From assembly GCF_963360655.1 (NCBI RefSeq), contig NZ_OY725712.1, positions 372,001-436,000 on the forward strand: a stretch of 64,000 nucleotides of DNA, read 5' to 3'. The notes under the pieces were generated by a model. The model was not told the DNA's origin and did no database searches. It saw only the letters and a list, made by a program, of their open reading frames with translations. A program made the translations under genes and the position numbers. Every line of letters starts with the position of its first letter. Position 1 is the first letter of the stretch. Below are positions 3,224 to 25,173 of the stretch, piece after piece. This DNA is from Collinsella aerofaciens. GTDB lineage: Bacteria; Actinomycetota; Coriobacteriia; Coriobacteriales; Coriobacteriaceae.

Positions 3224-3565
3224 CTACAGTGCGATGGCCTGCTGAACAGGAACGATCTTGCCGAGTTCCGGTTCGATCCGCCTTTTCTCGGCCTCAAGGT
3301 CAAACGCCACCTGAGCGCGCAGCCAATAACCATCCGTCAGGCCAAAGTAGCGGCAAAGACGGAGGTCGGTGTCGGCCGTCACGCGACGTTTTCCCAAGAC
3401 AATCTGCCCGATACGCTGAGCCGGAATCCCAGTCTCTTTCGCAAGACGATATTGAGAAATGCCCATGGGAACAAGAAACTCCTCTTTGAGAAGCTCACCA
3501 GGAGTCACCGGCGACAGCAAATCGGCCGAAGCCTCATCACTTGTGATAATCGACGATTTCGACAT
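3224..3565 (-). CDS. higA: HigA-type antitoxin
   Basis: A 113-residue XRE-family protein of the HigA/VapI group. The signature begins TPGELLKEEFLVPMGISQYR and continues through a helix-turn-helix (AKETGIPAQRIGQIVLGKR) to RLCRYFGLTDGYWLRAQ, which is highly typical. In known systems this protein neutralises the HigB ribonuclease and represses its own promoter. The start at 3565 overlaps the end of the toxin gene by 29 bases, the usual higBA order with toxin first. Upstream in-frame codons to 3640 lie within the toxin gene and are not needed. Confidence 0.88.
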   Translation of the reverse strand: MSKSSIITSDEASADLLSPVTPGELLKEEFLVPMGISQYRLAKETGIPAQRIGQIVLGKRRVTADTDLRLCRYFGLTDGYWLRAQVAFDLEAEKRRIEPELGKIVPVQQAIAL

Positions 3566-14367: not shown

Positions 14368-16368
14368 TTAGTCAATCGGATCGAGCGCATCGATCTGCGC
14401 AAGCCACAGACGTGAGCTGGCGTCACTCGGCATACGCCAATCGCCGCGCGGACTGAGCGTCACCGAGCCCACCTTGGGACCATCGGGCAGGCAGCTGCGC
14501 TTAAACTGCTGGGCAAAGAAGCGACGATAGAACGTACGCAACCACGTGTGGACGGTCTTGACGTCGTAGACGCCCTCGAAGCTCTTGAGCGCCATGCGGT
14601 AGATCTTGCCCGGCTCAAAGCCAAAACGCAGCAGGTAGTAGAGGAAGTAGTCGTGCAACTCGTACGGGCCCACCAAATCCTCGGTCTTCTGCGCAATCTC
14701 GCCGTCGCCCGTGGGCGGCAGAAGCTCGGGGGACACCGGCGTATCGAGGATATCGAGCAAGACCTCGGCAATGCGCCCGCCAAAGACATCGGCGGCATAG
14801 CGTACCAGATGGCGCACAAGCGTCTTGGGCACGCTCGCGTTGACGGCGTACATGCTCATGTGGTCGCCGTTATAGGTAGCCCAGCCGAGCGCCAGCTCCG
14901 ACAGGTCGCCCGTGCCAATGACAAAACCGCCAGCCTGGTTGGCCAGATCCATCAGAATCTGCGAACGCTCGCGCGCCTGGCTGTTCTCGTAGGTCACGTC
15001 CTGCACAGCTGGATCATGCTCAATGTCCTTGAAGTGCTGCTCCACAGCCGCGTGGATCGAAACCTCGCGGAAGCTCACACCCAGGTCGCGGGCGAGCGAC
15101 TCGGCATTCGACTTGGTGCGATGCGTCGTGCCGAAGCCGGGCATGGACACGGCTGTGATACCAGTGCGCGGCAGCCCCAGTGCATCGAAGGCACGCACGG
15201 TCACAAGCAGCGCTAGCGTGGAGTCCAAGCCGCCCGAAAGGCCGATAACCGCAGCCTTGGTACCCGTGTGGGCAAGGCGGGTCTTGAGGCCCGCAGTCTG
15301 CAGATCGAGGATCGTCTCGCAGCGCTCGGCCAAGTCGCCGTGGTCGGCCGGCACAAAGGGCGCGCGCGGGAAAACGCGGTCGATATCGCAGGCATCGCGC
15401 AGGACGGGCTCTTTGGCCAGCACGCCCTCAAATGAAAACTCAACAGTCGTGGCCTCAGGCGCATCGTCCGCGCGCGTCCACGTCGTCGAGCGACGGCGCT
15501 CGGCAACCAGACGGTCGAGGTCAACATCGGCAACCGCCATATCGCAAGTGAGGAGCTTCGTGGCGGCGAGCTTAGATCCGTTTTCGTAGACGAGGTTCTC
15601 GCCCGCAAAGACCATGTCGGTCGTGGACTCGCCCTCGCTCGCATCTGCATAGGCATAGGCACAGTACAGGCGCGCGCTCTGGTTGGATATGAGGCTGCGT
15701 CGGTAATCTGCCTTGCCGATAATCTCGTCCGAGGCCGACGGGTTGAGGATCACCGTCGCACCGGCAAGCGCCATCTCGGTCGAAGGGGGCGCCGGCACCC
15801 ACAGGTCCTCGCAGACCTCAACGCCCAGCACCATATCCTCGACACCCTCGTCACAGCAGCGGTAGACAAGCTCCGAACCCAGCGGAACCGGACCCTGACC
15901 GGCAAACTCGACCCACACGGGATCTGCGGGCGCCGGAGCAAACCAGCGGCGCTCGTAGAACTCGCCATAGTTGGGCAGATACTTCTTGGCCGTGAGGCCC
16001 AAAAGCTCGCCCGCGCAGCACACGGCGGCGCAGTTGTAGATATTCTCGGCAACTGCAACGGGAAGACCGATAGTAAAGACAATCGGCAGCTCACGAGTCT
16101 CATCGAGGATATGCACCAAAGCAGCCTCGCAGGCATGCAGTAATGTGCGGTTATGGAACAGATCGGCCGCGGTATAGCCGCACAAGTTGAGCTCGGGCAG
16201 TACCAGCGCGCGAACGCCGCGCTCAACAGCCGCGCGAACAGCCGCTAACGCAACCTCGGCATTGCCCTCGACATCGGCCACGCGAATCTGCGGCGACGCC
16301 GCCGCCACACGCAAAAAGCCATCGTTCTTATTAGCCGAAACGCAGCATTGCCTTGTTGATCTGGACAC
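14368..16368 (-). CDS. nadE: Glutamine-dependent NAD+ synthetase
   Basis: A 666-residue two-domain enzyme that makes NAD from nicotinate adenine dinucleotide with ammonia taken from glutamine. The N-terminal nitrilase-type amidase domain (about 20-300) shows the Glu in VLPELNLCGY (E59), the Lys in KKYLPNYGEF and the nucleophile C186 in GVEVCEDLW. The synthetase domain (about 345-640) has the ATP loop SGGLDS at 378-383 and GTGDLSELALGW. The GTG start at 16368 follows AAGGGG with six bases spacing. It is transcribed alone and ends at its own terminator. Confidence 0.95.
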   Translation of the reverse strand: MSRSTRQCCVSANKNDGFLRVAAASPQIRVADVEGNAEVALAAVRAAVERGVRALVLPELNLCGYTAADLFHNRTLLHACEAALVHILDETRELPIVFTIGLPVAVAENIYNCAAVCCAGELLGLTAKKYLPNYGEFYERRWFAPAPADPVWVEFAGQGPVPLGSELVYRCCDEGVEDMVLGVEVCEDLWVPAPPSTEMALAGATVILNPSASDEIIGKADYRRSLISNQSARLYCAYAYADASEGESTTDMVFAGENLVYENGSKLAATKLLTCDMAVADVDLDRLVAERRRSTTWTRADDAPEATTVEFSFEGVLAKEPVLRDACDIDRVFPRAPFVPADHGDLAERCETILDLQTAGLKTRLAHTGTKAAVIGLSGGLDSTLALLVTVRAFDALGLPRTGITAVSMPGFGTTHRTKSNAESLARDLGVSFREVSIHAAVEQHFKDIEHDPAVQDVTYENSQARERSQILMDLANQAGGFVIGTGDLSELALGWATYNGDHMSMYAVNASVPKTLVRHLVRYAADVFGGRIAEVLLDILDTPVSPELLPPTGDGEIAQKTEDLVGPYELHDYFLYYLLRFGFEPGKIYRMALKSFEGVYDVKTVHTWLRTFYRRFFAQQFKRSCLPDGPKVGSVTLSPRGDWRMPSDASSRLWLAQIDALDPID

Positions 16369-16497
16369 TGGAGGCCCCTTCTACCCTGAGATTCAGTCTA
16401 ACGGACGTTCACATATCTCTAACTAGCCAAAGCAACCTCCCAGTTTACTGAGAGGCCAACCTGTGCTAAAAGCATGTATTTCAAAAATATCTTTAAT

Positions 16498-16532
16498 TAA
16501 AAAAGGAGAAATCGATAATCGACTTCTCCTTT
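16498..16532 (-). terminator. Terminator of the peptide/radical SAM operon
   Basis: On the minus strand AAAGGAGAAGTCGA and TCGATTTCTCCTTT form a long stem with a three-base loop, followed by a T run. It closes the operon 25 bases after the small peptide gene. Confidence 0.88.
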
Positions 16533-16556
16533 AAGCGAGGCGAGTAAATTCCGAAA

Positions 16557-16667
16557 CTAATGGCAGAATTTATCCATGTAGTCCTCAAAGTCGAACACTT
16601 CCACCACGACGCCCTCTTCCTGAAACTCTTTCAGTTGCTCCAAGAGATCTTTGTTAATAACGTCCAT
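16557..16667 (-). CDS. Putative RiPP precursor peptide, 36 residues
   Basis: A 36-codon gene starts at ATG 16667, seven bases after a perfect AGGAGG that begins within the stop region of the radical SAM gene. The first half (MDVINKDLLEQLKEFQEEG) is an acidic amphipathic helix typical of a leader. A hydrophobic VVVEV stretch follows, and the product ends FEDYMDKFCH with a single Cys next to the C-terminal His and nearby Phe, Tyr, Met and Lys. It is last in an operon with a B12-type radical SAM enzyme and an MFS exporter and is followed by a terminator. I recognise no known precursor family. Coding status is supported by the ribosome site, the spacing and the operon position, not by homology. 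Confidence 0.7.
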   Translation of the reverse strand: MDVINKDLLEQLKEFQEEGVVVEVFDFEDYMDKFCH

Positions 16668-16680
16668 GCAGAAACCTCCT

Positions 16681-19004
16681 CTATCTAATCAATTGTAGTA
16701 TATCTGCTTTCATGCAATTATCAACCAACTTGTTTAATTGCTCCTCGTTTGCCGATAGTCCCTCTTTTTTCAAAATGTCGCGCACCTCGTTCTTAGTAAT
16801 CGGCTTTTCAAACAACGAAAGCAAAGCGAACGAAAAATCATTAACCGCACACATTCTATGGGTGGCACAACTCAGCAGTACTCTTAACCCCTCTTTTGAG
16901 CGTCCGACTTCTTTCACAAACGAACTTTTAACCAATTGAAAACCATTATCGTGCATTACATAATCGGCATCGATATTTGTATTCAGCAATCCATAATGCA
17001 ACAGTTCTTCTATCGCCCTTGTCAGCTCGAGGTCGCCCTGATCAAGGATAAGAGAAATGCTACAATCGGCCTCCAATAAACGGGCCAACTTAAGGTATAC
17101 CAACTGGGAAACAGCATAGACATGATGGTATTCAGAATTATAGAAGTAGGCAAATGGCTCAACGAGCACGACAGAGGTCTTGGAATCCAGCCAGATTCGA
17201 TCAGCTGGATTTAGACTAGTTAGCCGTCGCTTTACTTTGGTCAAATGTCCCTTATACCTGACAGCGTGAATAGAATCTAGGATCCAGGTCACCTCTGAAA
17301 TATGAAGCCGCTGGGGCAAGTCAATTGTGTCGCTACCGTTTATGACCTCTTGCATATAAAAATCAATATGATGCTCATCAGATAAGGATTTTGCTTCATT
17401 TAAAGTTAAACCAGTGCCTGAAACATAATCCACTTCGAGGCGCAAATCCTCATATTGGGACTTCGGCATTACAGAGACACCATACTTATCGGGATGATTC
17501 CAAACATCCGACCCCATAACGAGACCAAAATTCGTAAATCCTCTCGTGGAATATGGAACACCACATACCTGTTTTGAATAATTCAAAACATTCTCTGTAT
17601 AAGCTAAGGTGTTCAGAGCCTCTTCTTTAGTTTCGGTCGGAAAGCCAATCATAAAGAATAGATGAACAGGAATACCCGCATTGAGACAATCATGGATATT
17701 GCGATCAATCCAATCAACTCTCGTGTTCTTCTTCATTAGATCAAGAACTCTTTGGTTGTATGACTCGAGGCCAAACTGAATCTGCCTACATCCACTTTGG
17801 TATATCTTGTTGAAAACGTCTGTACTTAGGGTTGGAGAGAACCTCGTTTCTCCATGCCAGAAAAACGTTTTTCCCGATGCGTTTATTTCATCCGCGAGTT
17901 GCTCCATTCTTTTGCCTTCGAATGTTTCATCCACAAAAGAGAAAACTCTCGTGCCGTATTTTTCATTTAACCGACACATTATTTCAAATACTCTCGATAT
18001 AGGCATCTTTCGGTAACAACCACCGGTAGCACCGGGAATGGTGCAGAAGGCGCAATGATTAAAACACTGCCTAGAGGAATAAACCGGCAATATTAACTCA
18101 GGCATGAAGTATTTAGAAAGGGCGAAGCCATCGAAATCGGGAACTGTATCGTTGATAAATGTTTGCTCAATCCGATGGTTTTTATATATCTTTCCACCTT
18201 TAGCATGGCAAAGGTTTGGAACACAGTCGAGATTGTCATCACCGGAGTCAAGAGCCTCAAGAAGACGTGCAAGCGGCTCTTCGCCGTCATACATCATTAT
18301 CGAATCAATGTATTCAAAAAAGGGATGCCATTCTTTCATGCAGTCATCTGCTAAACGAGTAATGTAATTGCCGCCCAATGAGACGTGTTTAACAGATGGA
18401 CATTCTTCTTTAATCAGTTTCGCTAACGTAACTGCAGAAATCAATTGGAAACAGCCGCTCACCGAAATCCCAATAAACTCAATTTTTTCCCTCTGAATAC
18501 GCTTAAGAAAGGCAGTTTCATAGAAGGAAATAAACGGATTATGCAAGGTATCCGCAAGCGATTTCATTATTTCTGGTGTCGAATAATAATCATAGGGCAG
18601 ATCTATGGAGTTGAACGTGTATTTAACTCCATACGAGACGTGATTTATGATATAGAGTGCATTTCTAAAAATGTTTTCAGCATATTGTCTTTCTTTTAGA
18701 TTAAAGTATCTCTTCGATCTGAAAATATCTTTTGCCTCGTCAACATTAAGTGCTGACTTTTGTATCAACTCGATTGTTAATTGAACATTCGAACTAAACG
18801 AATCCTTTGATTCCCGATACCTTTTACAGCACTCTTCGACATGTCTAAAAGATAGGAGGTCATCGTAAAATTCCACGTTTAAGTCAACAATGTCAACTTT
18901 ATATTGTTCAACCTCTTGAAGATATGACTTCAAAACAGGCAAGGCAAGATACGGCCCCCCACTGGACTCCATCCTGGGGGAAATACTAAAAGCGTTTTAG
19001 GCAT
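16681..19004 (-). CDS. B12-binding-type radical SAM peptide maturase, frameshifted near the start
   Basis: A radical SAM protein of about 774 residues if one frame change is allowed. The natural start is ATG 19004, eight bases after the MFS stop, giving MPKTLLVFPPGWSPVGG, the usual N-terminus of cobalamin-type enzymes. The rest continues in another frame from PYLALPVLKSYLQ; the switch is at a run of six G (C6 at 18955-18960). An N-terminal B12-like domain is suggested by IGISVSGCFQLISA and HVSLGG. The 4Fe-4S motif is CFNHCAFC, followed by VDETFEG, WHGETRFSP and FGLESYNQRVLDLMKKN. The last 100 or so residues look like a PqqD/RRE-type winged helix that would hold a peptide leader. No SPASM cysteine cluster is obvious. 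Base composition is far more AT-rich than its neighbours. Confidence 0.82.
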
Positions 19005-19011
19005 ATCAACG

Positions 19012-20199
19012 TCACATCTTTCGCAAATAATTCAATTGAAACGCAGCTACCATCATAATTGAAAATACACCAAGTCCTGTAACGAGAATTGAGAACATCG
19101 CGGTGCTCGTGAACAGCGAAACAAGGAGTGTTGAAATAACAACAGCAACCGATTGCAAAGACTCCCTAATTGAAAACAGGCTTATCGATTCAGATTCGTC
19201 TCTCGCCAAATCCTGCAGCGATGTTATGAGAAGCACATCTTGAATGGCGTTTCCGGCACCGACGATAAAAAGGATAATAAACGATATCCCAGACGCATAA
19301 CGATAGCCAAACGCCAGATACGCACCGAGCGCAAGATACGTCACAAAACAATATGATTTAACGCAATCGGAACCACTAATTAAACGACCATATATTGTAT
19401 TTCCGAACAACAGTCCGATTGTAAGACTACTCTGAAGGAATCCATATTGTATCGATGACGAGTCAAATTGCAATTGCGCTATAGCTGGCAAAAGAGAATT
19501 CAGAGAGCCGAATGCCACGCCACTAGAAATATCGATTAATAGGAAACCAATTGCCAAGTGCTTCGCGCTAAGATCACTAAATGCAGTCCTGTTTTTTTCA
19601 TTTTTGCTTATCCCCTCTTTATCATTAACCTCGATAACCGACGGAACATCTCGCAGCAACCAGAACGACGCGGCAAAAGAAAGCGCGTCTAATGCAAGAA
19701 CAGCCTCCGCCCCAAATTGAGCGACAACAAAACCGCCGGCAACTGGCCCCAGAACCATCATCAAATTCTGCAGAAACCCAAACGAATTATTAATTACGTC
19801 GCGATTGATACTATTCGTATTGGCTCTTAACAACGAGTAAAAGCAGGGCATTTCAACCGTTCGGCAAAGCGATACCGCGCACGTAATAGCAAACATACTC
19901 CATTTACTATCAACAAAAATATAGCAAACGAATAATCCCGCGCGAATTAAGTCTGCCAATCTCATGGCCTGCAGTGTCCCGATACCCATCTTCTGAGGCA
20001 GCTGCGCGAGCGAAACTGAAAACAGAGAGGGGGCAAATCTGCAGCAGACCATCAAAGCAGTTGCAGAAACATCGTGAGTTACCTCGTAAATCAGCATTGG
20101 CAAAGCAATATTCGCACACCAATTGCCTATTTCGCTTATCCCTCTAGCAATATATAGGACCCGAACCGGATGGCTAGCTCTCAATACCGTGAACATCAC
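19012..20199 (-). CDS. MFS transporter, probable peptide exporter
   Basis: A 395-residue major facilitator protein with about 12 hydrophobic segments. The first half carries RADLIRAGLF-like text (MRLADLIRAGLFVCYIF) and the second half repeats the pattern after a charged central loop (NDKEGISKNEKNRTAF). It is closest in style to MFS_3/enterobactin-exporter type proteins. It starts inside the 3' end of the DUF2087 gene (GTG 20199 or ATG 20196, both after a GAGG) and ends eight bases before the radical SAM start, so all genes should be translated together. Export of the modified peptide, or self-immunity, is inferred from context. Confidence 0.85.
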   Translation of the reverse strand: MMFTVLRASHPVRVLYIARGISEIGNWCANIALPMLIYEVTHDVSATALMVCCRFAPSLFSVSLAQLPQKMGIGTLQAMRLADLIRAGLFVCYIFVDSKWSMFAITCAVSLCRTVEMPCFYSLLRANTNSINRDVINNSFGFLQNLMMVLGPVAGGFVVAQFGAEAVLALDALSFAASFWLLRDVPSVIEVNDKEGISKNEKNRTAFSDLSAKHLAIGFLLIDISSGVAFGSLNSLLPAIAQLQFDSSSIQYGFLQSSLTIGLLFGNTIYGRLISGSDCVKSYCFVTYLALGAYLAFGYRYASGISFIILFIVGAGNAIQDVLLITSLQDLARDESESISLFSIRESLQSVAVVISTLLVSLFTSTAMFSILVTGLGVFSIMMVAAFQLNYLRKM

Positions 20200-20455
20200 G
20201 ATTAACCTCGTATTTCAGGCCTCGTTCATCCCTTAATAGGAATCCATAATCAACCAAGTACCGCCTCAACACGGCATAATCAGGATAGAGCTGTGACAGC
20301 ACACGATTAACCTGAAGCTCCGTATAACTTGTATTTAATTCAAAGAAAGAGACGGCCCATAGCAGCATGATTCTTTTATAGCTTTCCTTTTTTGGAATTG
20401 AAACCAGCTCGCCATTCTTGAGAAATCGTTTTTTAAAGTCTATTAGCTCATCCAT
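20174..20455 (-). CDS. DUF2087 winged-helix-like protein
   Basis: A 93-residue protein. The central part (ESYKRIMLLWAVSFFELNTS, then YTELQVNRVLSQLYPDYAVLR and RYLVDYGFLLRD) is the DUF2087 pattern, a small helical domain often attached to ArsR-type regulators. It is the first gene of the peptide operon, with GGAGG six bases before ATG and a promoter 30-55 bases upstream. It overlaps the MFS gene by about 25 bases. It could regulate the operon through the direct repeats around the -10 box; that is inferred. Confidence 0.7.
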   Translation of the reverse strand: MDELIDFKKRFLKNGELVSIPKKESYKRIMLLWAVSFFELNTSYTELQVNRVLSQLYPDYAVLRRYLVDYGFLLRDERGLKYEVNRDVHGIES

Positions 20456-20470
20456 TCACATCCTCCATTT

Positions 20471-20511
20471 CATACGCATCTAATACTAAAAATGCATACG
20501 CTTTAGGTCAT
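20471..20511 (-). promoter_or_regulatory. Promoter of the peptide operon with CATACGC direct repeats
   Basis: On the minus strand ATGACC (20511-20506) and TAGTAT (20488-20483) are 17 bases apart. CATACGC occurs at 20471-20477 and again at 20495-20501, 24 bases apart, on both sides of the -10 box, a good position for a regulator. Confidence 0.5.
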
Positions 20512-20534
20512 CGCATTCGGCTTCTTTATTCGAA

Positions 20535-20774
20535 CTAAACTCGAACTAATCTAAATGATTTGCTCAAACACTCTTCGAAAGCTCGTTTTTCACTCTGAGT
20601 AAAATGCCCTTCCCAGTCAGTCCACGAACAGGAAGGCAACTCACAGCGAGCGGAGTCGAAGCCCTCTGCCGTCGGTCGTTCAAAATGCACGACAACCTTT
20701 TCGATATCCTCATCTGCAATCAGGTCAGAATGAACGACCTCGGTACCGTCTTCGAATGTCATATACGGGTACAT
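20535..20774 (-). CDS. Conserved small protein of unknown function
   Basis: A 79-residue acidic soluble protein beginning MYPYMTFEDGTEVVHSDL. The ATG at 20774 follows GAGGTGG by eight bases; in-frame codons upstream are not needed. The middle (VVVHFERPTAEGFDSARCEL) followed by a Trp-containing segment (SWTDWEGHF) and a helical end resembles small proteins seen in other gut bacteria, often near toxin-antitoxin genes, but I cannot name a family. There is no membrane segment. It stands directly upstream of the AT-rich peptide cluster, in the same direction, with its own ribosome site. Confidence 0.6.
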   Translation of the reverse strand: MYPYMTFEDGTEVVHSDLIADEDIEKVVVHFERPTAEGFDSARCELPSCSWTDWEGHFTQSEKRAFEECLSKSFRLVRV

Positions 20775-20949
20775 CACGTAAACCACCTCGCAATCGTAAA
20801 TCCAGTTTAGCATCAAGCTATTGCACCAAAGACAGCAAGCCCCCCTTGATGAGTTGATGGTATCTGCTAAATGTCACGTACGATTCACATCTGGTGGGTA
20901 CCCTGATGGCTGAATGAAACGAAGCAGATTTACGCCGGGAGGACCCCGT

Positions 20950-21894
20950 ATGACAACCAAGTACACCGACGCGCCGCGCACGCGCGTCATGACGCCGGCA
21001 TCGCTCAACAACGGCGTGCACGAGAACCATTCCATCGGACAGACCATGGCCATCGCGCCCAAAAAGGGCCTGTTCGATGACATTTCCATTCCCCAGATCA
21101 TCGCCGGCGCCGCAGCTGCTGCCACGAGCGTCGCGCTTGCCTCCAAGATCGGTATCGCCGGATCGGTGATCGGCGCCGCCGTGAGCTCGGTCATCACCGT
21201 TGTGTCCTCGCAGGTCTACCGCCACTTTATCTCTGCGAGCGCCGAAGCAATCAAGGGCACGCATGCCGCTGTCGACTACCCTGCCGGCGCCTACGAGCCC
21301 GTTGAGCCCGATGTCGAGGAGCACCTAGGTGGCGCCGCGACCACGCAGGAAATGCGCCAGGTTGCGGGACGCGCGACCACAGCGCGCGTCGCCCCTAACA
21401 GCCTGCGCGCCAAGGCCGCGGCAGAGCGCAGCCAGACGCAAAAGAAGGTCATCGTCTTCTCGATCGCCATCGCCATTGTCGCGGTCATCGCCTGCGCCGG
21501 TGCCATCCTTATCACCACCGCCGGTGAGGGTCTGGGTGAGCGCCCCGAGCCAATCCTTTCGTCGCATACGACCGAGCACGACGCGGATAGCTCCGGTCAA
21601 TCGCAAGGCCAGCAGGACGACCCGCAGGGCACCTCCACATCCACCGACTCGTCCTCGAACACCCCCGATCAGTCGCAGGACACCGATTCCTCTGTGAACA
21701 ACAGCGGTACGCAATCCGGCACAACCGACTCAAGCCAAACGACTGACGGCTCTCAACCGAGCACGGGCGACCAGACGAGCGGCAATACATCGGGCACGGG
21801 ATCTACCGACAACAGCAGCACTAACAGCTCGGGCGGAACCGCGTCCGGCACGGCATCTGACAGCTCGAGCCAAGGCACGACGTCGGGCAACTAA
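20950..21894 (+). CDS. Membrane protein with long Ser/Thr/Gly-rich tail
   Basis: A 314-residue protein. The ATG at 20950 follows GGGAGG by seven bases. Residues about 45-90 are a Gly/Ala-rich hydrophobic region (IIAGAAAAATSVALASKIGI and onward) able to form a membrane hairpin. A soluble segment follows to about 160, then one strong membrane helix (VIVFSIAIAIVAVIACAGAI). The last 125 residues are low-complexity Ser, Thr, Asp, Gly and Gln, as in wall-spanning stalks, but there is no sorting motif at the end. Similar proteins occur in Coriobacteriia; function is unknown. Confidence 0.65.
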   Translation: MTTKYTDAPRTRVMTPASLNNGVHENHSIGQTMAIAPKKGLFDDISIPQIIAGAAAAATSVALASKIGIAGSVIGAAVSSVITVVSSQVYRHFISASAEAIKGTHAAVDYPAGAYEPVEPDVEEHLGGAATTQEMRQVAGRATTARVAPNSLRAKAAAERSQTQKKVIVFSIAIAIVAVIACAGAILITTAGEGLGERPEPILSSHTTEHDADSSGQSQGQQDDPQGTSTSTDSSSNTPDQSQDTDSSVNNSGTQSGTTDSSQTTDGSQPSTGDQTSGNTSGTGSTDNSSTNSSGGTASGTASDSSSQGTTSGN

Positions 21895-23825: not shown

Positions 23826-24930
23826 AAGTCCACGCATAATAGCTCTGATCATACTTCAGGAAGGATAAAGATGAATTCCAGCCGTCCGCTATGCCAATCA
23901 TCTGCCTTGTCTCTCCAGTTTTCTTACCAGTAAGTGTGGCGTAAGCCTCCGCTGTTACAGAATGGGCTGATCCGTTGTACAAACTCGCATGTAAAACATT
24001 CGGTCTATTAGAGTTAATCTCATTTTGAATGCTCGCGATAGCCGGAGAGGAGACAGTGCGGGCGATAAGAGTACTTCCTCTGCTTGCGCAGTAATTTGTA
24101 AACCCCGTTGCACAGGTTGATATCGGCGTTCCACCCAAAACAACGCCGGGAACAGTCTGTTCTTCATCGGAAAGAGCATGGGTATTGGTGTAACTCCATA
24201 TCTGCATATATTGCGAAGGGTCGCTATATAAATTGGCAATGCCATACAGTTCCGCAACGTTCGAAAAAGCTGTCACCATACAAGCATAGTGGGCGGTAAG
24301 CCTCTTAATCTCGCTTTCATCATATGACATAAACTGAGAAATGGAACGAAATCCAGATACTGTGTAATCCTGCATTTGAGTTGCGTAAATTACAACATCG
24401 TTCCAGCTTGAAGGTTTATTCGATAAAACGACAGGCCGTCCTTCTATGGAAACAGCCGGGATTGTTCTTCCGCAATTTGTTGTTATTGAACCGTCCAAAG
24501 ATTGCACGCCGAATTCGAATGGATTGATCATTACGACTGGGTTATTGAAAGAATAAGACTCGACACCAAGATCTCCTCCCCGATCCATAGGGCTGACTAA
24601 GCCGTCTCCAAAACGATATCCCGTAAGTATTTCATCATCTGAAGCATCTAAAACCAAATAGCCCGCGGCTCTATTGGATGTCACAACCGGAACAATGTAA
24701 CCAAGCGGGGACCCATCAACATCTACAAAAGGAATAGGGTCAGAAGGCGTATACGAATAGCCGAGGAGTCCCTTTATATATTTATCGGCAAGCTCTTGCG
24801 CAATTTCAGAAGTAAATTGTATCTGCTCACCATCAATATTGCCCGTCGAAGCAAAAACCTCTTTCGGACGTGCGGCTAAGGCGACAATTGAAGACGCGAC
24901 AAGTTGCAGAAAACGACGACGCGAAAGCAT
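23803..24930 (-). CDS. Tat-exported C39/C10-like papain-fold protein
   Basis: A 375-residue secreted protein. The start MLSRRRFLQLVASSIVALAA is a twin-arginine signal with a cleavage region near ASTG. Residues 35-150 look like a propeptide of the streptopain/Spi kind (DVDGSPLGYIVPVVTSNRAA, then GYLVLDASDDEILTG). The C-terminal domain has a Cys in HYACMVTAFSNVAELYG, a second in CATGFTNYCASRG, a His in GSAHSVTAEAY and a late Asn in DGWNSSLSF, consistent with a papain-like C39_2/C10 fold. Activity is plausible but not certain, since I cannot assign the catalytic Cys firmly. Composition is AT-rich compared with neighbours, a sign of transfer. Confidence 0.72.
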   Translation of the reverse strand: MLSRRRFLQLVASSIVALAARPKEVFASTGNIDGEQIQFTSEIAQELADKYIKGLLGYSYTPSDPIPFVDVDGSPLGYIVPVVTSNRAAGYLVLDASDDEILTGYRFGDGLVSPMDRGGDLGVESYSFNNPVVMINPFEFGVQSLDGSITTNCGRTIPAVSIEGRPVVLSNKPSSWNDVVIYATQMQDYTVSGFRSISQFMSYDESEIKRLTAHYACMVTAFSNVAELYGIANLYSDPSQYMQIWSYTNTHALSDEEQTVPGVVLGGTPISTCATGFTNYCASRGSTLIARTVSSPAIASIQNEINSNRPNVLHASLYNGSAHSVTAEAYATLTGKKTGETRQMIGIADGWNSSLSFLKYDQSYYAWTYGTTFSK

Positions 24931-24986
24931 ATGTTCTTCTTTCTAGAGAAGCGACTTATAAGGTACTCCTATTCTATAATCTTTTT

Positions 24987-24998
24987 TGTAACGTTACA
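24987..24998. promoter_or_regulatory. Perfect palindrome TGTAACGTTACA
   Basis: A 12-base perfect palindrome 57 bases upstream of the Tat-exported protein gene, next to an AT-rich region that may be its promoter. It is a candidate operator. The rest of 24999-25173 shows nothing I can name. Confidence 0.35.
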
Positions 24999-25173
24999 GC
25001 ACTGGTTATATTTCAATTCGATTTGCTTATGTCCTTGCAACCCAATGCGTCTTTACGTTTTAAACGGAATTAGAAAATCGCTCATAGCAAAAACGGGCTT
25101 TAATCCCAAAGAGATAACTTTGATTATGAATCAAACCAGCAGCCAGGGCATAGCTGCAGTGCAATTGCTACAA

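Follow-up and report, generated by a model that had tools for sequence, protein, structure and literature searches.

What does a small AT-rich block of genes in the gut bacterium Collinsella aerofaciens make, and can its bearers still make it? The block lies in a 64,000-nucleotide stretch of contig NZ_OY725712.1 (positions 372,001–436,000; hereafter the window, numbered from its first letter), and it encodes a DUF2087 (domain of unknown function) protein, a major facilitator superfamily (MFS) transporter, a B12-binding radical S-adenosylmethionine (SAM) enzyme and a 36-residue peptide. Collinsella is a common human gut genus. A preliminary description of the window had proposed a new system for a ribosomally synthesized and post-translationally modified peptide (RiPP). 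Taking the evidence as a whole, we consider it very likely that the block is an acquired RiPP operon, with the peptide as precursor and the radical SAM enzyme modifying its core. The conserved peptide–enzyme pair and the presence of the four genes in two bacterial families support the proposal in part, but the enzyme gene looks broken in the window and in most of its relatives. We verified the open reading frames (ORFs) of all four minus-strand genes, and the AGGAGG reported before the peptide gene is present. The features of the operon are as follows.

20455–20174, minus strand: DUF2087 protein of 93 amino acids (PF09860, E-value 5e-20; DUF2087 over residues 17–83).
20199–19012, minus strand: MFS transporter, putative exporter or self-protection protein (PF07690, E-value 3e-17).
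16681–19004, minus strand: B12-binding radical SAM enzyme gene, counted from the start used in an intact relative, with the CxxxCxxC motif CFNHCAFC.
18972–16681, minus strand: open frame that remains of the radical SAM gene in the window (PF04055, E-value 8e-18).
16696–16887, minus strand: weak PqqD-like or RiPP recognition element (RRE)-like match by hhalign, about residues 706–769 of the 773-residue intact enzyme.
16680–16675, minus strand: AGGAGG ribosome-binding site upstream of the peptide ATG.
16667–16557, minus strand: putative RiPP precursor of 36 residues, its C-terminal motif shared with genome G066.
16502–16532, minus strand: intrinsic terminator 3' of the peptide gene, 14-pair stem, –18.3 kcal/mol.

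The evidence that carries this reading begins with the peptide. In genome G066 (locus L024), a member of another family, a 39-residue ORF begins 21 bases past the enzyme gene, and its C-terminus, IEVLDHEDYLVKYCN, matches that of the window peptide, VEVFDFEDYMDKFCH, at 8 of 15 positions, ungapped and to the very end. In 20,000 shuffles no score was as high, and the match was the best among 600 open segments in L024. Sequence similarity between the two peptides is confined to this C-terminus, where both carry the motif (V/I)EVxDxEDYxxK(F/Y)C(H/N), and purine-rich ribosome-binding sites are present at both loci. Within Collinsella, the peptide is open in 9 of 9 records with the place visible (intact reference included), and the copies differ by three synonymous changes and one non-synonymous change. 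The peptide is there at every visible Collinsella place and in G066; homologous clusters devoid of a peptide gene, named in the preliminary description as grounds for rejecting the idea, did not appear among these records, the plasmid relatives having been inspected by eye only. The window peptide matches no Pfam, NCBIfam or PHROG family (its sole row was 13.7 bits to a model that requires 90), in line with the earlier statement that no described family has this precursor, and the G066 peptide matches no family in NCBIfam, the one collection searched with it. As in a RiPP operon, a short peptide gene lies beside a modifying enzyme and the pair is kept in two divergent loci. The comparison supports the peptide as a conserved partner of the enzyme.

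The other genes tell a similar story. G066 carries relatives of all four in a different order and direction: the enzyme gene and the peptide ORF are followed by the MFS gene, and the DUF2087 gene is divergent upstream. The G066 enzyme and that of Collinsella genome G027, in which the gene is intact, are 44% identical over the alignment, with a sharp drop past residue ~580, and have in common CFNHCAFC/CFNNCAFC and an N-terminal FPPGWSPxGPYLALPVLKSY. Between the window and G066, the MFS proteins are 30% identical (E-value 5e-36) and the DUF2087 proteins 42.5% (E-value 1e-23). That G066 keeps the same set in changed order and direction argues for the four genes being one functional unit. Between the G066 peptide and MFS genes (L024, 11850–11930) we saw by eye a hairpin-like stretch, GCCCTGCCTC...GAGGCAGGGC, a possible attenuator favoring the precursor mRNA.

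We also traced where the enzyme occurs. We sampled one genome per species and searched beyond Actinomycetota in plasmid records and viral contigs. The genome contig search returned 10 enzyme-bearing loci, all in Collinsella records and seven of them in C. aerofaciens. Of 65 genomes in the family, 8 have the enzyme at an E-value of 1e-30, all of one genus and with 97–100% identity per matched piece. It is present in 9 of 395 genomes of the order, namely the eight Collinsella and G066, and in 9 of 396 genomes drawn evenly from the class, the identical set of nine. Four genomes passed in an even draw of 396 Actinomycetota (two Collinsella, G066 and a partial match, G665), a draw that held no full-length relative outside Collinsella and G066. 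Among plasmid records, 100 had a match to the enzyme, all below 60% identity and none covering more than 80% of its length; we opened five of these neighborhoods and listed ORFs around three of the enzymes, and by-eye inspection found no peptide with such a C-terminus. A single scan of viral contigs with just two short patterns found no relative of the enzyme.

What might the enzyme do? Its PF04055 domain and CFNHCAFC motif identify a radical SAM protein, and the B12-binding domain PF02310 was matched at an E-value of 9e-4 (19.6 bits, under the cut-off of 32.1). Several NCBIfam profiles of B12/radical SAM enzymes align to it beginning at residue ~150, each with a score below its cut-off. The best was TIGR03975, a RiPP maturation radical SAM C-methyltransferase, at 116.9 bits for the window enzyme and 94.7 for that of G066; PhpK (107 bits), ApyD (85) and HpnJ (85) also matched the window enzyme. 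We read the enzyme from these profiles as a relative of the RiPP C-methylases outside every named family. Sequence searches of the Protein Data Bank (PDB) returned AprD4 alone for the enzyme (E-value 1.4e-5) and one meaningless match for its C-terminus (E-value 0.95).

The preliminary description had placed an RRE-like domain in the last 100 residues of the enzyme. We compared these with a PqqD profile built from 28 of the 29 PF05402 sequences, L078 having been dropped as out of register. Residues ~706–769 of 773 covered the whole profile, with hhalign E-values of 6e-4 to 7e-4 for the pair alignment and 3e-3 for the single sequence; three stretches elsewhere in the enzyme gave at least 0.25, and the tail of a Rhizobium relative used as positive control gave 1.6e-4. 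The probability for the real single sequence was 4.0%, compared with 0.6% for the best of 40 shuffles. The Pfam scan did not report PqqD for the enzyme. These results are suggestive of a PqqD/RRE-like domain over the last ~65 residues; the remainder of the last 100 gained no support. A second RRE-like domain that we suspected by eye at residues 610–690 was not supported by hhalign. Elsewhere in the window genome, a 381-residue open frame contains a PqqD-domain match of 36.5 bits (L100, G000:C6:108443–108631), possibly a second peptide-modifying system.

Building on the gene set and the conserved peptide, we propose the following model. The precursor would consist of a variable N-terminal part, a strand-like VVVEVFDFED segment and a short core (YMDKFCH/YLVKYCN). 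The strand-like segment probably docks on the PqqD/RRE-like tail of the enzyme, which would then modify the core; C-methylation of a core residue appears the most likely chemistry, followed by a cross-link via the shared Tyr, Phe/Tyr or Cys. A protease encoded outside the operon would cut the peptide, and the MFS protein would export the product and possibly also protect the producer. The DUF2087 protein probably modulates expression of the precursor, like BtmL in the bottromycin pathway. The nearest NCBIfam models of the MFS protein are TIGR00900 and EntS, both far under cut-off; the DUF2087 domain has a single match in the window genome, and a PDB sequence search with the DUF2087 protein found none.

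Several points weigh against the RiPP reading. The enzyme reaches no NCBIfam cut-off (TIGR03975, 116.9 of 281.85 bits), and PhpK-type enzymes, which act on small molecules, match nearly as well. The printed hhalign probability of the RRE match is just 4–12%, and a structure model of the C-terminal 182 residues of the enzyme alone was too poor to help (mean predicted local distance difference test score 44.5). There is no protease among the four genes. The boundary between leader and core cannot be drawn from the mere two independent versions of the peptide that are known. The window enzyme's frameshift, described below, could be a real mutation or an assembly error.

The profile matches leave room for an enzyme whose substrate is a small molecule or some component of the cell, with the peptide as its accessory subunit or regulator. 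PhpK, HpnJ, BchE and AprD4, whose profiles all match the enzyme, have small molecules as substrates, and the PhpK score of 107 bits stands close to the 117 bits of the RiPP family. We nevertheless hold this to be improbable: the part that the two peptides share is the extreme C-terminus with its penultimate Cys, as in a substrate core, neither four-gene set contains any other biosynthetic enzyme, and a PqqD/RRE-like tail is indicated, if weakly. It is very improbable that the operon is no more than an MFS efflux unit accompanied by a radical SAM enzyme, its peptide being a spurious ORF or a short regulatory one, since despite its mere 36 residues and want of a family match the peptide has a counterpart with a similar C-terminus at the equivalent place after the G066 enzyme gene, stays open in all nine Collinsella records with mostly synonymous differences (three to one), and is served by purine-rich ribosome-binding sites in both loci.

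If the block is a RiPP operon, as we favor, is it still working? In the intact relative the enzyme starts at the ATG at 19004 (MPKTLLVFPPGWSPVG...), and the window frame from there closes after 24 codons. A run at 18955–18960 has six G's in the window and four in the eight other records read, a +2 frameshift at codon 15, and the window ORF listed for the enzyme (18972–16681) is without the conserved N-terminus. What the preliminary description had missed is that the two extra G's split the conserved N-terminus. Measured against the intact G027 copy of 773 codons, evidently disruptive lesions are present in seven of the eight Collinsella genomes found with the enzyme gene, each of them different.

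G000 (window): two extra G's at codon 15, frameshift.
G009: start codon changed from ATG to ATA.
G010: stop at codon 11.
G034: stop at codon 29.
G029: insertion junction at nucleotides 2240–2255.
G007: another insertion junction, at nucleotides 2232–2245.
G013: IS21-type element (istA/istB-like ORFs by our reading) at 592–596, 5-base overlap.

Each of the three inserted elements spans a contig gap, so that we read its junctions and not its interior. In a ninth record, strain D40t1 (L021), all that is visible of the gene is its final 83 bases, which adjoin the junction also seen in G029. The insertion elements of L013/L019 and L017/L020/L021 have related ends (GGTTGATTT...; ...AATCAA) and apparent target duplications of 14–16 bases, and in two or three strains their insertion points in the enzyme gene fall inside one stretch of ~25 bases. 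Since G034 matches a metagenome assembly (L014), culture cannot be the whole explanation of the losses. With the reference excluded, the DUF2087 gene is open in 7 of 7 records and the MFS gene in 6 of 7, that of G007 having a one-base insertion. With its enzyme gene interrupted, the window genome probably has a silent pathway, and it is improbable that this copy makes a mature product.

We then asked how the losses arose, counting differences from G027 without polarizing them on a tree; the numbers are small. Synonymous and missense differences number 25 and 7 in the enzyme gene, the lost start aside (ratio of non-synonymous to synonymous polymorphism, pN/pS, 0.09 with the lost start counted), 12 and 14 in the MFS gene (pN/pS 0.36) and two and two in the DUF2087 gene. 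The flanking gene at 14368–16368 (NAD-synthetase-like by our reading) has a pN/pS of 0.07, close to that of the enzyme gene. It has 304 synonymous differences, from which it follows that in these genomes the island is much younger than its flank. Because missense differences in the enzyme are few, the losses look recent and repeated, which suggests a product that costs or harms its maker, or else a public good that cheaters can exploit.

The lesions themselves may simply reflect neutral decay of a useless imported operon and be uninformative about the product, an explanation that we regard as quite possible, if somewhat short of an even chance. The MFS gene also has one lesion (G007) and a raised pN/pS, and the concentration of lesions in the enzyme gene, seven of the eight distinct lesions in a gene that makes up 60% of the codons in the operon, is not significant (P 0.10). 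Three loss-of-function point changes are not more than the 3.1–6.0 expected at the neutral rate. Free drift would, on the other hand, have brought 62–86 missense differences into the enzyme for 25 synonymous ones, where we see seven. Three of the ten protein-changing point differences abolish the gene (P 0.010–0.023), an excess that holds relative to missense only, since the count itself does not exceed neutral expectation. Four flanking genes, too, are unbroken in all 23 copies readable whole, though these are probably core genes. For this flank test we listed 13 ORFs mechanically and counted, besides the MFS and enzyme genes, those at 3515, 4593, 12047 and 16596 of L022; seven others were excluded after the table had been seen (an IS21-type transposase, upstream-extended ORFs and antisense or doubtful ORFs), of which five or six show stops in some records. 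Apart from the lost start, the small lesions number three, and all lie within the first 29 codons (chance ~5e-5), a post hoc observation.

A bolder account, which we put forward only tentatively and think rather unlikely, is that gut Actinomycetota possess a new RiPP family whose short C-terminal core ends in (F/Y)C(H/N). The family would have spread recently in Collinsella, and selection would have inactivated its maturase time and again, in independent events, while largely sparing precursor, exporter and regulator. This is the pattern to expect of a modified peptide harmful to maker or neighbors, with non-makers that retain the MFS protein as protected cheaters.

The surroundings of the operon bear on its origin. 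Two further features frame it.

16324–20845: AT-rich island of ~4.5 kb, whose two flanks adjoin without it in 12 genomes of the genus.
20535–20816: additional 93-amino-acid ORF in the island, upstream of the operon, with no Pfam, NCBIfam or PHROG match.

The island has 42% GC and the remaining window 58%. In 12 Collinsella genomes (L034–L044 and L046) both flanks lie near each other and the island is absent, so the block is an insertion, as its AT-richness had led the preliminary description to suppose. G014 has a stretch resembling the additional ORF at the same site with no operon match, and similar DNA occurs in G033, there apart from these flanks; the site may therefore be an insertion hotspot. 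The strong terminator reported after the last gene is there (14 pairs, z –3.4, with 2 of 200 shuffles equally good), and terminator-like sites over the whole region number 4 against 4.3 by chance, that is, no excess. The promoter claimed before the first gene found no backing: the promoter scan gave no site between 20456 and 20534, and such sites in the region number 10 against 10.2 in shuffles. An Rfam scan of 16300–21000 returned nothing up to an E-value of 0.5, hence no cobalamin riboswitch. The GC-rich window has a second AT-rich stretch at 24001–25000 (44% GC).

How does the locus compare with known systems? The open-access literature, with subscription papers mostly outside its coverage, yielded no report tying Collinsella to a radical SAM RiPP precursor peptide, and within the same coverage DUF2087 occurred together with radical SAM only in a bottromycin study. 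A single paper there, on a collection of pig isolates, mentioned C. aerofaciens along with RiPPs. The kind of RiPP is known, and what would be added to the B12 radical SAM RiPPs is an apparently undescribed precursor, together with an unusual, repeated loss of its maturase. One intact and seven differently broken enzyme copies in near-identical operons also form a natural experiment in which the effect of the product on producers and neighbors can be tested. TIGR03975 (rSAM_ocin_1) is the top NCBIfam family of both enzymes, yet both, scoring 117 and 95 bits where the cut-off is 282, are relatives rather than members. ApyD is a B12 radical SAM enzyme that acts on RiPP precursors, in a cluster containing a multinuclear non-heme iron-dependent oxidative enzyme (MNIO), and its profile was matched at 85 bits, short of the cut-off of 750. 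None of the window's four genes corresponds to the YcaO or hydrolase genes of the bottromycin cluster or to the bottromycin precursor sequence.

C-methylation is the reaction for which the B12 radical SAM enzymes of RiPP pathways are chiefly known (PMC5682303). PbsB instead cross-links two aromatic residues, and its cluster, as described, also has an MFS gene but differs from ours in having an MNIO, an arginase and other enzymes, none of which is among the four genes here (PMC12257519). The closest likeness is to bottromycin, whose cluster combines B12 radical SAM methylases, the MFS exporter BtmA/BotT and the DUF2087 protein BtmL (PMC7113386). BtmL specifically raises transcription of the precursor gene btmD by a mechanism that the study calls unknown, and deletion of btmL reduces production to ~40% (PMC7113386). 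The two differ in that bottromycin has three methylases with a Cx7Cx2C motif (PMC5682303) and the window one enzyme with CxxxCxxC, and in that BtmL has a further N-terminal part predicted to be ArsR-like, whereas the window protein has 93 residues. The resemblance is one of make-up and not of membership, and with this operon DUF2087 would gain a second RiPP-type setting besides bottromycin.

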